DNA of 21,749 bases from a virus, in the IMG/VR virus record IMGVR_UViG_3300013233_000563, positions 1-21,749 of that record. One strand, written 5' to 3'. The translations under genes and the position numbers were made by a program. The stretch's first letter is position 1. Every line of letters begins with the position of its first letter. Positions 3,453 through 8,706 of this stretch are shown one piece after another. Below the pieces are notes generated by a model, which was not told the origin of the DNA, did not search any database, and saw only the letters and a program-made list of their open reading frames with translations.

Positions 3453-3774
3453 ATAAACGTATTCCTGTGGGTAAAGACGAAAGAAATGATTTCAACTTCT
3501 TGCGGTCACAGGAACGGATGTCAGATGATAATCCATCAGAGACAAGCATCTCGAATGCCTCGACTACACAAATTGCGCTCGAAAACATATGAACTGGCAT
3601 AGCGGACAGCACAAAACCAGAGTTCTCTCTGATTTTTGCATAAATAATATGTCGAGCAGACTCCTGATGATTGAAATGACGGCAAACCGCATCAACACGG
3701 TCTCTGATTTCCTTCCTCTGCGCCCTGGAAATAACATCATGCATTGCATGCTTGCAATGAGGGCAGAATCTCAT
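3451..3774 (-). CDS. CPHC-motif early phage protein, unknown function
   Basis: A 107-residue protein starting MRFCPHCKHAMHDVIS. The N-terminal CPHC looks like half of a zinc knuckle, with possible partners H9 and H12. The remainder is helical (VCRHFNHQESARHIIYAKIREN ... AICVVEAFEML) and faintly recalls helical C-terminal domains of phage antirepressors, but I would not assign it. The ATG at 3774 has GGAGG 4-5 nt upstream and overlaps the Cro-like stop (ATGA). As the second gene of the lytic operon, before the terminator, it occupies the place of an antiterminator or antirepressor (inference). Confidence 0.6.
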   Translation of the reverse strand: MRFCPHCKHAMHDVISRAQRKEIRDRVDAVCRHFNHQESARHIIYAKIRENSGFVLSAMPVHMFSSAICVVEAFEMLVSDGLSSDIRSCDRKKLKSFLSSLPTGIRL

Positions 3775-4043: not shown

Positions 4044-4126
4044 GCCGCAACACTACATATTTCGTTTAGTATGGTCAACACGTTTTGTTTAGTTTATAAA
4101 AAACACGAATATATAGAGTGGTGCAT
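4044..4126. promoter_or_regulatory. Divergent cI/cro control region with direct-repeat operators
   Basis: Two direct repeats, TTTCGTTTAGTAT (4060-4072) and TTTTGTTTAGTTT (4083-4095), lie 23 bp apart, about two helical turns. A minus-strand promoter for the Cro-like gene fits TTGACC (4073-4078), a 17-bp spacer and TAGTGT (4050-4055). A plus-strand promoter for cI fits TGGTCA (4072-4077), a 17-bp spacer and TATAAA (4095-4100). The -35 boxes thus overlap, and each spacer contains one repeat, so protein bound at one repeat would block one promoter selectively. The -10 of the Cro side is weak. Confidence 0.55.
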
Positions 4127-5047
4127 ATGAACGCATTTGATCGAATGATGCAGGCTATGTCGCAAAATGAGCCAGTAATAACGGAAGCCGAAATGGCCAG
4201 AAAGCTGGGAGTTACTGACCAGCGTTTTCATAATTGGAAAGGCCGTGGCTCCATACCGAAGAACATGCTTGAGCCAATCGCTGATATTTTGGGCATTAAC
4301 CTTAAATGGTTGATCTCCGGCCGTGGAGACAAACGCCCCCCACAATCATATGTTGATGCAAAAGAAAAACTTGAGAAACAGGGCTATGTCAAAGGTCAGG
4401 ACACGATAGACTTGCTGCAACCCATGCTCGGCAGCTTATCAGAATCTCTTGAAACGACTGTGCGTGAAATACTTAAAAAAATACCAACCATGCCGGAAAA
4501 AGAACAACGGGAAGCACTCGACATGGTGAATGCTGCTATTGCACGAACCAAGCATGCTGCCGGCCCTGCTATTTCCGCGATGACCGGAACCAACCCTTTC
4601 GGTCAAGGCAACACAACCGAGAACCCAAGCAAAACCCTCATCAACATTTATGAGAACATCGAAGCATCTGCGGGTGATGGATCTGTCGTAAATAGTGAGG
4701 AGCCGACCGACCACCTGTGGGTGGAAAACAAATGGCTTCAGGAAATCGTGCACTACGTCCCGAGTGACATGGCCATTATCAAGGTCAAGGGCGATTCAAT
4801 GGAGCCAACGCTGTCACCTGGCGACATGATCCTGATTGATCGCCAACCGATTGAGCGAGACCAGCTCAATGACGGCATCTATGTCATCAACAGAAACGGA
4901 ACAACACACGTCAAACGACTCCAGAGCACCGAGGAAGGCATCCGTATCATAAGCGATAACAAAACACTATATGAAGCGGAAACCGTAACCGACAACCTGA
5001 TCGTTTGCGGGCGCGTAATATGGGCATGGCGAGGCAAGCGGTTTTGA
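4127..5047 (+). CDS. cI: CI-type prophage repressor with S24 (LexA-like) peptidase domain
   Basis: A 306-residue protein. Residues about 1-65 are a phage CI HTH domain (ITEAEMARKLGVTDQRFHNW ... ISGRG). A helical linker follows, and the C-terminal S24 domain contains the nucleophile in GDSMEP (Ser224) and the general-base Lys in THVKRL (Lys263). An Ala182-Gly183 pair in SAGDG fits the RecA-stimulated self-cleavage site. It should bind the operators at 4044-4126, keep the lytic operon off, and be inactivated by DNA damage. The ATG at 4127 (MNAFDRMM) is preferred over GTG codons at 4118 and 4121; GAG at 4116-4118 is the only SD-like sequence. It leads a four-gene operon with overlapping starts. 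Confidence 0.93.
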   Translation: MNAFDRMMQAMSQNEPVITEAEMARKLGVTDQRFHNWKGRGSIPKNMLEPIADILGINLKWLISGRGDKRPPQSYVDAKEKLEKQGYVKGQDTIDLLQPMLGSLSESLETTVREILKKIPTMPEKEQREALDMVNAAIARTKHAAGPAISAMTGTNPFGQGNTTENPSKTLINIYENIEASAGDGSVVNSEEPTDHLWVENKWLQEIVHYVPSDMAIIKVKGDSMEPTLSPGDMILIDRQPIERDQLNDGIYVINRNGTTHVKRLQSTEEGIRIISDNKTLYEAETVTDNLIVCGRVIWAWRGKRF

Positions 5048-5229
5048 TGCCATGGCCAGAAACTCCGGAGCAAATCAGCCAGGGCATGCTGGATGATATC
5101 GCCGGGCGGGTGTCAGCTGCGATGCCGGTGGACAAAAAACGGGATAAAGTTCACATTCTCGACATGATCAATAAAATTATAAAAGAACACTATGAACAGC
5201 ATATGCATCCACACGGGAGAGAACAATGA
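5047..5229 (+). CDS. Small protein of the repressor operon
   Basis: A 60-residue protein starting MPWPETPEQISQGMLDD. Its ATG overlaps the cI stop (TGATG) and its stop overlaps the lipoprotein start (ATGA), so it is translated with cI in the lysogen. The middle is an amphipathic helix (VHILDMINKIIKEHYEQH). No signal peptide or domain is recognised. The longer reading frame from 5005 lies inside cI and is unlikely. Confidence 0.55.
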   Translation: MPWPETPEQISQGMLDDIAGRVSAAMPVDKKRDKVHILDMINKIIKEHYEQHMHPHGREQ

Positions 5230-5633
5230 AATACAAATATACCATAGCCACAACCATCATTCTGGCGGCACTCGTTTCCGGGTGCGCCACTCACAACTCG
5301 CCAGAAGCCATGGCAAAAAAAGCTGAACTACAAAAAACAATCCCGGTCTGCAGCGGAGAGGCCGACTGCAAAGCCAAATGGGAAGCGGCACAGCTATGGG
5401 TCGTTCACAACGCAGCTTATAAAATACAGATCATGTCCGATGTGTTGATTGAAACATATAATGCAACAAATTCCGAGCCGTCCATCGCGGCCAGGGTTAC
5501 AAAAGAGCCTCTCGGCGGAGGTAAATACCGGCTGCTTGTTTCAGTGTGGTGCGACAACGTATTCGGATGCGTTCCTGATTCAATGGACGCAGCTCTAGAT
5601 TTCAACAAAACCGTTTCAGCAGCACGGCCATGA
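5226..5633 (+). CDS. Lipoprotein co-expressed with the repressor
   Basis: A 135-residue protein with a type II signal peptide: charged MKYKYT, a hydrophobic core and lipobox LVSGC with Cys20 as the lipidation site. Ala at +2 predicts outer-membrane sorting. The mature part has two cysteine pairs (C42/C48 and CDNVFGC) that could form periplasmic disulfides, and a likely beta-rich C-terminal domain. A lipoprotein made in the lysogen next to cI suggests superinfection exclusion or lysogenic conversion, as known for other prophage lipoproteins; this role is inferred. SD GGGAGAG lies before the ATG. Confidence 0.75.
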   Translation: MKYKYTIATTIILAALVSGCATHNSPEAMAKKAELQKTIPVCSGEADCKAKWEAAQLWVVHNAAYKIQIMSDVLIETYNATNSEPSIAARVTKEPLGGGKYRLLVSVWCDNVFGCVPDSMDAALDFNKTVSAARP

Positions 5634-5854
5634 GCGGAATCATGGGAGGCATGGGCATCATCGGATCGTTGATCTTTTTATTCCTGATCATTGTTATACC
5701 GATCTCAATATACTCGGCTCAGAAGTGGGCATATAAATGCTACCGCGAACTGCAGAAAACCAACCGCATTCTGGAGTCGATTGCCGCACAGAGAGGGATA
5801 TTAAACACATCACAAAAGCAGTATGAACCGGGCGTCGAAATCATCGAAAAATAG
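5630..5854 (+). CDS. Single-pass inner-membrane protein of the repressor operon
   Basis: A 74-residue protein starting MSGIMGGMGIIGS. A strong transmembrane segment (about residues 9-30) is followed by a cytoplasmic or periplasmic helix (QKWAYKCYRELQKTNRILES) with coiled-coil character. The ATG overlaps the lipoprotein stop (ATGA). Together with the lipoprotein it makes an envelope pair expressed with the repressor, plausibly a superinfection-exclusion module. No family recognised. Confidence 0.6.
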   Translation: MSGIMGGMGIIGSLIFLFLIIVIPISIYSAQKWAYKCYRELQKTNRILESIAAQRGILNTSQKQYEPGVEIIEK

Positions 5855-6133
5855 CAAAAAATGGTACGGTTGTTGGTACATGCTTTTTAACAATTCGCAC
5901 AAGTGATTGATTTATAACAATAAAACAAAAATGTTTCACTCCCGCCCCTGCCTCCAACCGTGTGTTCTATGGTGTTCGGTGTTGCTGGAAATCCCAGTGT
6001 TTTCAATGAATTCTTTCTTTTGTTTTGCTTGTGTTGTTCTATGTTGTGCTATGTAATCCGGAACGAATGATGGTACAAATAGTGGTGCATGCCGTTTCGA
6101 GGCGGCGATGTACCAACAAACGGGAGGCGATGC
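5855..6133 (+). other. Candidate attP region: Int arm-type repeats and tRNA/tmRNA-like core
   Basis: This non-coding stretch before the integrase contains four copies of TGGTAC-type motifs (5862, 5874, 6070, and inverted at 6110). Two form a perfect 12-bp inverted repeat, TTGTTGGTACAT (5870-5881) and ATGTACCAACAA (6108-6119). Between them, GTTTCACTCCCGCC followed by TCCA (about 5934-5961) resembles the T-arm and 3' end of a tRNA or tmRNA, the usual integration target of P4-type integrases. Repeated TGTTCTATG motifs follow at about 5961-6050. Flanking arm sites around a core are the expected attP layout. The exact core is unproven. Confidence 0.4.
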
Positions 6134-7370: not shown

Positions 7371-7571
7371 TCACTCTTCTGTGTTTAGGGTTCTATATTT
7401 CTCGTCGTGTTCTCGCAGCAGGCGTTTGAGGTGGCGGAGTTTGTTGGCGCGCATAGTCATGGTGCGCCGGGTTTGTGGCGTGGTGGGTTCCGGGGTGGAT
7501 GCCAGCAGCAGAGCCTGCTTGTCGATCTTTTTTTGCAGGCTCAGCTGCCGGCGTTCCGGGGTGTATCTCAT
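7371..7571 (-). CDS. Small basic protein, last gene of the moron cassette
   Basis: A 66-residue protein starting MRYTPERRQLSLQKK, highly basic and helical (RANKLRHLKRLLREHDEK). Its ATG overlaps the stop of the RHH protein (ATGA), so it is coupled to it. The 3' end touches the CACAAAG repeat, so the last residues (TLNTEE) may come from repeat sequence. No family recognised; nucleic-acid binding is possible from charge. Confidence 0.55.
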   Translation of the reverse strand: MRYTPERRQLSLQKKIDKQALLLASTPEPTTPQTRRTMTMRANKLRHLKRLLREHDEKYRTLNTEE

Positions 7572-7987
7572 GATTCAGAAATGCGCCGGATAATTTCGCT
7601 GAAATCTTTGGCATCGCTCCAGTCGTTGCTCCAGAAAATCTGCACGAAGGTCAGAATGGCGAATTGTTCGGCCTGGGTCATGCCGTGGATGCGCTTGACC
7701 AGATCGGCGTTGGGGTGATCGTTCACATCGAGCAGGCCGAGATCATCCATCAGATCAGATGCAACGCGATATGGCTGCACCTGCAATGAATCGCAGGTGC
7801 CTGCGTAGGTGTTGAGAATCACCTGCCACTCTGCCGGGGTGAATTCCGGCAGGGATTGGCGGAACACCCAATCAGCGGCGGACAGCGTCTGGTTGATGAT
7901 GCGTGACCATTCCGGATCATCACGCGACATTTTGCGAATGATGGCCTCGGTCTGGTCGGACAGGAATACTGATTTTTTGATACCCAT
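7568..7987 (-). CDS. Ribbon-helix-helix-type protein of the moron cassette
   Basis: A 139-residue protein. Residues about 1-45 (KKSVFLSDQTEAIIRKM ... PEWSRIINQTLSAADWV) fit a ribbon-helix-helix fold: a short strand, then two helices with the 'S..In..L' pattern. The rest (FTPAEWQVILNTYAGTCDS, VASDLMDDLGLLD, MTQAEQFAILTFVQIFW) is a helical domain that I recall next to such N-termini in other proteobacterial mobile elements. RHH proteins are dimeric DNA-binding regulators. A palindrome over the cassette's own promoter makes autoregulation plausible. SD GGGGAGG is well placed; the start overlaps the previous stop by one base. Confidence 0.65.
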   Translation of the reverse strand: MGIKKSVFLSDQTEAIIRKMSRDDPEWSRIINQTLSAADWVFRQSLPEFTPAEWQVILNTYAGTCDSLQVQPYRVASDLMDDLGLLDVNDHPNADLVKRIHGMTQAEQFAILTFVQIFWSNDWSDAKDFSEIIRRISES

Positions 7988-8385
7988 TATGCAGCCTCCC
8001 CGGGTTCGTTGGTGATTTCCATGCCTGATATTCTGACGATATAGGATGCCAGTCGGTGTGCCTGCTCTGAAACGTAAGCATCCGCTACTGATTCGGCCAG
8101 ATCATCTAACAGGTCTTTTTCACACTCATCGGTGGCATAATTAACCTGACGATCCGCGAAGTTTATCCGGCGGAACACAAACCTGTTGAAGTCATCTTTT
8201 CCATCACTACCGCAACGCATATCATGGGTGTGTTCGCAATGCTTGCAAAACACCATCTCGCCTTCCTCAGTCGTTGCTGTAAAAAAACGGTAAGCCAGAT
8301 TCAACCGCGTGAACCCCGTTGTCTTTCCTACCTCAGTCCATCGCCTCCATATTTCAGCTTCAATTTTTTTGATTCTCTGCTGCAT
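7987..8385 (-). CDS. Moron-cassette protein with CxxC/HxxxxxC cluster, unknown function
   Basis: A 132-residue protein starting MQQRIKKIEAEIWRRW. I chose the ATG at 8385 because AGGAG lies 6 nt upstream; the ATG at 8391 is too close to it, and the long ORF from 8556 is a shadow of the gene before it. The middle has FCKHCEHTHDMRC, three cysteines and histidines spaced as a small zinc site. The C-terminal half is acidic and helical (EKDLLDDLAESVADAYVSEQAHRLASYIV). No family recognised. Expression from the cassette promoter suggests activity in the lysogen. Confidence 0.6.
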   Translation of the reverse strand: MQQRIKKIEAEIWRRWTEVGKTTGFTRLNLAYRFFTATTEEGEMVFCKHCEHTHDMRCGSDGKDDFNRFVFRRINFADRQVNYATDECEKDLLDDLAESVADAYVSEQAHRLASYIVRISGMEITNEPGEAA

Positions 8386-8395
8386 GATCATCTCC

Positions 8396-8614
8396 TTAGT
8401 TATATCCGTAATGATCTGGCAGGCAATTTTCCCAAACGCCGCCGATTTTGTGAGCAAGAACCAACCCGGTATCGTCTTCAATCGTAAGACATGTTCCACG
8501 GAATACCTGCATGCGTGTTGCCGCTCTCTTTGCAGCAGTAAGATTCGCTGCCTCAATTTCTGTGCCTTTTCTGTAGCTGTTTGGGTTCTGTTTTTCAGAG
8601 ATTATGTATTTCAT
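8396..8614 (-). CDS. First gene of the moron cassette, unknown function
   Basis: A 72-residue protein starting MKYIISEKQNPNSYRKG, with a helix (ANLTAAKRAATRMQ) and a beta-hairpin-like end (CLTIEDDTGLVLAHKIGGVWENC). The size and strand-helix-strand layout suit a small single-domain protein. SD AAGGAG lies 6 nt before the ATG. It sits about 57 nt after the predicted transcription start. The first gene behind a private promoter in a late-region cassette is where anti-CRISPR or other host-interaction genes often occur; that is a positional inference only. Confidence 0.6.
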   Translation of the reverse strand: MKYIISEKQNPNSYRKGTEIEAANLTAAKRAATRMQVFRGTCLTIEDDTGLVLAHKIGGVWENCLPDHYGYN

Positions 8615-8677
8615 TTTGGACTCCTTCGGTCAGCCCTGTGGCTGTTCCGTGGTTTATTTCCCTCTCGGGGTAGGTGT

Positions 8678-8706
8678 ATTATCGCACATTGGTACGATAA
8701 TGTCAA
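8678..8706 (-). promoter_or_regulatory. Near-consensus sigma70 promoter with overlapping palindromic operator
   Basis: On the minus strand TTGACA (8701-8706), a 17-bp spacer and GATAAT (8678-8683) give a perfect -35, a five-of-six -10 and ideal spacing. ATTATCG (8678-8684) and CGATAAT (8695-8701) form a perfect inverted repeat with a 10-bp centre, which covers the -10 and the edge of the -35. Any dimer bound there would block RNA polymerase. The promoter drives the four genes at 8614 to 7371 independently of the late operon. Confidence 0.85.

Follow-up and report, generated by a model that had tools for sequence, protein, structure and literature searches.

A Predicted acr-aca Operon of a Temperate Phage with an AcrIF9 Homologue and an RHH-Like Candidate Autorepressor

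Introduction

A cassette of four small genes between the lysis side and the integrase of a phage-type contig raises two questions: is it directed against CRISPR, and which protein controls its promoter? The window (the whole stretch of DNA analysed, 21,749 bases) is an entire viral contig record with tail, lysis, CI-like repressor and integrase genes of phage type. An initial annotation likened the layout of the cassette to that of acr-aca loci. With a probability of about three in four, we consider the locus to be an acr-aca operon of a temperate phage, which codes for an AcrIF9-family product and an autorepressing RHH-like Aca.

Gene Content of the Operon

The operon is on the minus strand, with its promoter 5' of four ORFs: 8614-8396 (72 aa), 8385-7987 (132 aa), 7987-7568 (139 aa) and 7571-7371 (66 aa). 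Gaps or overlaps at the junctions do not exceed about 10 bp; the second and third ORFs have 1 base in common, and the third and fourth have 4. The set of four small genes behind a near-consensus promoter is thus as originally described.

The first gene (8396-8614) was initially taken to have no recognised relatives. This was wrong. A phmmer search of the 72-aa protein against PDB returned AcrIF9 (7chr_A, E 3.5e-14; 6vqv, 7.4e-13; 6w1x, 4.9e-12), with a match that covers residues 2-70 of 72 at about 51% identity. The structure 7CHR has Photobacterium damselae as its source (PMC9478129), and the best plasmid relatives of the 72-aa protein are also from this species (L013/L014, 48.6% identity). 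The residues of AcrIF9 that contact Cas7f or form the DNA patch are R17, K31, R32, K36, Q38, F39-H41, K58 and R63 (Csy-AcrIF9 structure, PMC7264359). In the alignment, R17 (R15 in the phage protein), L27 (L25), K31 (K29), R32 (R30), Q38 (Q36), F40 (F38) and K58 (K56) are kept, and K36 is conservatively replaced by R34. F39 is changed to V37 and H41 to R39, while R63 falls into a gap. As judged from this alignment, the protein is an AcrIF9 homologue with most Cas7f-contact residues retained, and it is predicted to inhibit CRISPR.

The second gene (7987-8385) codes for an orphan. No match above noise was obtained for the 132-aa protein in Pfam, NCBIfam, PADLOC or PDB, PHROGs returned sub-threshold matches only, and there are no relatives among viral contigs or phages. 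The earlier statement that this protein lacks relatives still holds for viral contigs, phages, family libraries and PDB. Its AlphaFold model (pLDDT 42.3) is too poor to use. Its position in the operon makes it a candidate anti-defence gene, and it probably acts as such. The third gene (7568-7987) codes for the 139-aa RHH-like protein, our candidate Aca, which is treated below. The last ORF (7371-7571) codes for a very basic protein of 66 aa (pI 10.7) without relatives in the family libraries (including Pfam) or PDB. Its start overlaps the stop of the RHH-like gene by 4 bases, and it may or may not be a member of the operon.

Elsewhere in the window, a 12-nt tandem repeat (GCCGGAGCCGTC, 22.8 copies, 1119-1392) is located within overlapping low-complexity ORFs. 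A 135-aa ORF with a lipoprotein-like N-terminus (5226-5633, plus strand) is encoded near the integrase and matches phrog_16082 (function unknown; E 9e-27).

Promoter, Operator and Leader

The minus-strand promoter TTGACA-N17-GATAAT (8706-8678; -35 at 8706-8701, 17-nt spacer, -10 at 8683-8678) matches the consensus at 11 of 12 positions, which bears out its initial description as near-consensus. It is the only promoter of this quality in the window, against an expectation of 0.16 for a sequence of this length and dinucleotide composition. The interval between -35 and -10 is filled by an inverted repeat, ATTATCGTAC-CAAT-GTGCGATAAT (8678-8701), which we consider a putative operator. Nine of its ten base pairs match, and the outer seven are perfect, so that the ATTATCG...CGATAAT palindrome reported earlier is confirmed. 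When ATTATCG-N10-CGATAAT was searched for with fewer than three mismatches, this palindrome was the single match in the window. Palindromes of such quality are not rare on their own (7.5 expected per window, about six distinct ones seen), and the idea that the palindrome is significant in itself was rejected for this reason. Because it could be common by chance, the weight rests on its place in the sole strong promoter and on its recurrence at this position in two other phages.

These are represented by two other viral contigs, L002 and L003. The counterpart in L002 (TTATCGCACCTATGTGCGACAA) has the same place in the promoter, and the counterpart in L003 (TATCACACCATGGTGCTATA) is degenerate. 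The shared operator sequence was found at these three loci only. Between the window and L002, the DNA of promoter and leader is 81% identical. An inverted repeat inside the core promoter is also a feature of described acr-aca promoters (PMC9410906).

The 5' leader (8615-8672, minus strand) contains a hairpin at about 8652-8623, with the inner stem CAGCC/GGCUG, immediately 5' of the Shine-Dalgarno sequence GGAG. In RNAalifold counts, this hairpin is conserved across the three loci, and two of its pairs show compensatory changes in L003. Folding z-scores are -2.8 for the window, -4.8 for L002 and -2.7 for L003. Each of the three leaders (8608-8672, minus strand, in the window; 5329-5390 in L002; 3506-3565 in L003) has a second hairpin at its 5' terminus, the sequence of which differs by locus. 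A pattern search for the leader in viral contigs yielded no more than two loci, both already known, and the promoter-leader region of L002 had no match among plasmids. For a phage anti-CRISPR, control by an HTH protein that recognises RNA as well as DNA has been described (Birkholz et al. 2024, as cited in PMC12456014). The leader hairpin described here may stabilise the mRNA or may be a second control point. The regulator in that report is said to be Aca2.

The RHH-Like Gene and Its Changing Neighbours

Close relatives of the RHH-like protein are encoded on L002 and L003 (76-78% identity). More distant ones are found on a further viral contig (L006, 38%), on Aggregatibacter conjugative plasmids (L007/L008, 31%) and on a Shewanella plasmid (L009, 25%), while scans of genome contigs returned no relative. 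Promoter, operator and leader of the window recur in L002 and L003, where the genes that come next are cargo without homology to that of the window, ahead of the RHH-like gene. Operator, leader and RHH-like gene are thus inherited together while the cargo is swapped. In tblastx comparisons, some early genes are also common to the window and L002, whereas the RHH-like gene is the sole protein similarity between the window and L003. It follows that no other gene common to the three elements is a candidate for reading the operator. From these comparisons, the RHH-like gene is best described as the invariant component of a mobile module with exchangeable cargo.

The assignment to the RHH type, proposed in the initial annotation, is plausible but weakly supported. 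The N-terminus has a conserved IKKSVxLS strand followed by two predicted helices, and this pattern fits the proposed fold. Statistically, however, the assignment is unproven: there is no RHH match in Pfam, and the one PDB match of an N-terminal profile, to ParD2, which is an RHH antitoxin, is weak (E 0.015). No HTH match was found in Pfam or NCBIfam. AlphaFold yielded only a poor model (pLDDT 54.5), and a fold search with it gave noise only.

The genes next to the RHH-like family point to counter-defence. In the window, the RHH-like gene is two genes after the AcrIF9 homologue. In L002, it directly follows a gene for a very acidic protein of 183 aa (5389-5940), which contains an AcrIC8-like stretch of 34 residues (E 0.001 with the full-length sequence and 2.6e-4 with the N-terminal part). 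Homologues thus do adjoin counter-defence genes, and the acr-aca layout proposed earlier is supported. A very acidic protein (pI 4.05-4.12, charge -23 to -33) is encoded directly before the RHH-like gene at four of the six loci (L002, as given above; L006, 5265-5960; L007, 4565-4954; L009, 5436-5945). No homology was detected among these four proteins, which are candidates for DNA mimics or other anti-defence proteins.

The operator motif is absent from L006 and from the Aggregatibacter plasmids. The Shewanella aestuarii plasmid L009 has two near-duplicate promoters (4440-5440) beside the RHH-like homologue, with genes for a cytosine methyltransferase and DndB close by. Both contain the operator half-site of the window, GTGCGAYAA, as a direct repeat, GTGCGACAAGRGTGCGATA, and these are its sole exact copies in the 212 kb of the plasmid. 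The two promoters are probably duplicates of each other and count as one event. This half-site match was spotted by eye and is suggestive only.

Proposed Mode of Action

We propose that the strong constitutive promoter would be on from the moment when phage DNA enters the cell. The AcrIF9-family product would attach to the thumb of Cas7f in the type I-F surveillance complex and keep the complex from binding its target DNA. The next products would be the 132-aa protein, probably another anti-defence protein, and then the RHH-like protein. Upon accumulation, the latter would occupy the inverted repeat in the -35/-10 interval and switch the promoter off, so that the burst of Acr would be short and its level in the lysogen would be kept low. 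DNA binding and autorepression are proposed for the RHH-like protein by guilt-by-association, a logic that has already been applied to Aca proteins.

Alternative Explanations

The RHH-like protein might do more than repress. A profile of the six-member family finds structures of AcrIE10 (hmmsearch E 5e-5; hhalign 91%; about 90 residues), with a score of 26.4 bits on AcrIE10, whereas shuffled copies do not exceed 8.0. AcrIE10 is a Cas7e-binding protein that keeps Cascade from assembling (PMC13131331), and it is a dimer (PMC12740422). Klebsiella plasmids carry its gene, with matches in 2,413 plasmid records. On the Klebsiella pneumoniae plasmid L015, a perfect 18-bp palindrome (GTATGACATCTGTCATAC, 3555-3572) in a promoter-like -35/-10 context stands before the small ORF that precedes acrIE10; AcrIE10 may be autoregulated on these plasmids. 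A bifunctional protein would repress the operon with an N-terminal RHH part and bind a Cas7 subunit with a C-terminal AcrIE10-like part, similar to AcrIF24 and AcrIIA1, which join an HTH to Acr function. This would be a stronger form of the acr-aca explanation and not an alternative to it. The profile match, the dimeric state of AcrIE10 and the perfect palindrome of the Klebsiella operon speak for it. However, the match leans on distant family members. Its E value rises to 2.8 when the Aggregatibacter protein is left out and to 0.044 without the Shewanella protein, and a profile from the three close sequences alone is at noise level (0.2 bits). We consider it possible but doubtful that an RHH-type family on phages and conjugative plasmids, with AcrIE10 among its members, joins N-terminal operon autorepression to C-terminal binding of Cas7 subunits.

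The likeness to AcrIE10 can also be turned against an Aca function. The RHH-like protein could be cargo, e.g., an AcrIE10-related Acr, in an acr operon that is controlled by the CI-like repressor of the phage (S24, 4118-5047) or by a host factor. A CI-type repressor is indeed encoded in the window, the family match is to a Cas7e-binding inhibitor, and the RHH motif is not significant. Nevertheless, the palindrome occurs nowhere else in the window, and the cI/cro interval (4044-4117) shows different motifs by eye, which is why control by CI was judged less likely. Moreover, L003 has the same operator and leader, yet tblastx revealed no CI-like gene in common. Overall, we regard control by another repressor as unlikely. 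RHH proteins are common antitoxins, and the weak ParD2 match could fit an operon that resembles toxin-antitoxin systems or is of general moron type, in which the RHH protein is an antitoxin or regulator and there is no link to CRISPR. None of the operon proteins matches a toxin family, though, and this reading, to which we assign very little probability, was rejected in view of the AcrIF9 homology of the first gene and the lack of a partner gene that is conserved across the loci. Autorepression of an acr operon by the RHH-like protein is the reading that we prefer.

Significance

Aca genes are the main bait in anti-CRISPR discovery, and a current Aca-finding tool seeks HTH regulators only (PMC9765179). 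If the RHH-like protein is a non-HTH Aca, it would open up operons that are missed by HTH-based searches and would provide a new bait for blockers of bacterial immunity. The missed set would include the acidic orphans beside four of the six homologues, the AcrIC8-like protein, and the 132-aa protein of the window. Should the more far-reaching family reading apply, then AcrIE10 would control its own operon on Klebsiella plasmids, a role so far unrecognised, and the neighbours of any family member would be new anti-defence genes.

Comparison with Known Systems

The closest known arrangement is that of the acrIF9-aca2 operons on the Photobacterium damselae plasmids L013/L014. There, too, the AcrIF9-family gene comes first, and a regulator is encoded downstream on the same strand. 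The acrIF9-like gene is directly followed by a gene with an Aca2_YdiL domain (PF08965, E 7e-18). The regulator is thus Aca2/YdiL, an HTH protein, while the window has an unrelated RHH-like protein and an additional 132-aa gene in between.

The locus resembles those of Aca1-Aca12 in that the last or nearly the last gene of an acr operon codes for a small regulator, the core promoter contains an inverted repeat, and the regulator recurs with different acr genes. The 12 Aca families of AcaFinder, however, all have an HTH domain (PMC9765179), whereas the RHH-like family of the window is without an HTH match. It appears to have an Aca-like role while being outside every described Aca family. Phage Acr repressors are also described as HTH proteins in a paper on RHH repressors of plasmid establishment genes (PMC8708921). 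We therefore file the locus as an acr-aca operon whose candidate Aca is new and of a non-HTH kind.

The Cas7e binder AcrIE10 of Klebsiella plasmids (published structures 8ji9 and 9m71) is remotely similar to the C-terminal part of the RHH-like protein over about 90 residues. In both cases, the gene comes after an ORF that is small and unrelated, with a promoter-like palindrome ahead of that ORF. AcrIE10 is, however, known as an inhibitor and not as a repressor, and the likeness is visible only via distant family members.

Among the searchable papers on anti-CRISPR and RHH proteins, mostly from outside subscription journals, the closest findings were RHH domains in predicted archaeal-virus anti-defence genes and plasmid repressors. 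Among the latter, Reg p576 of the pLS20 clade II plasmids is an RHH-type repressor that confines establishment genes to a transient burst on entry (PMC8708921). Both systems would combine an RHH-type protein with a transient burst; the pLS20 clade II plasmids are conjugative and belong to a different host group, and the two are likened by description only. If the reading as an acr-aca operon is true, then the phage locus would parallel these RHH-controlled establishment genes (PMC8708921), and it is tempting to speculate that the same timing logic is achieved via two DNA-binding folds.
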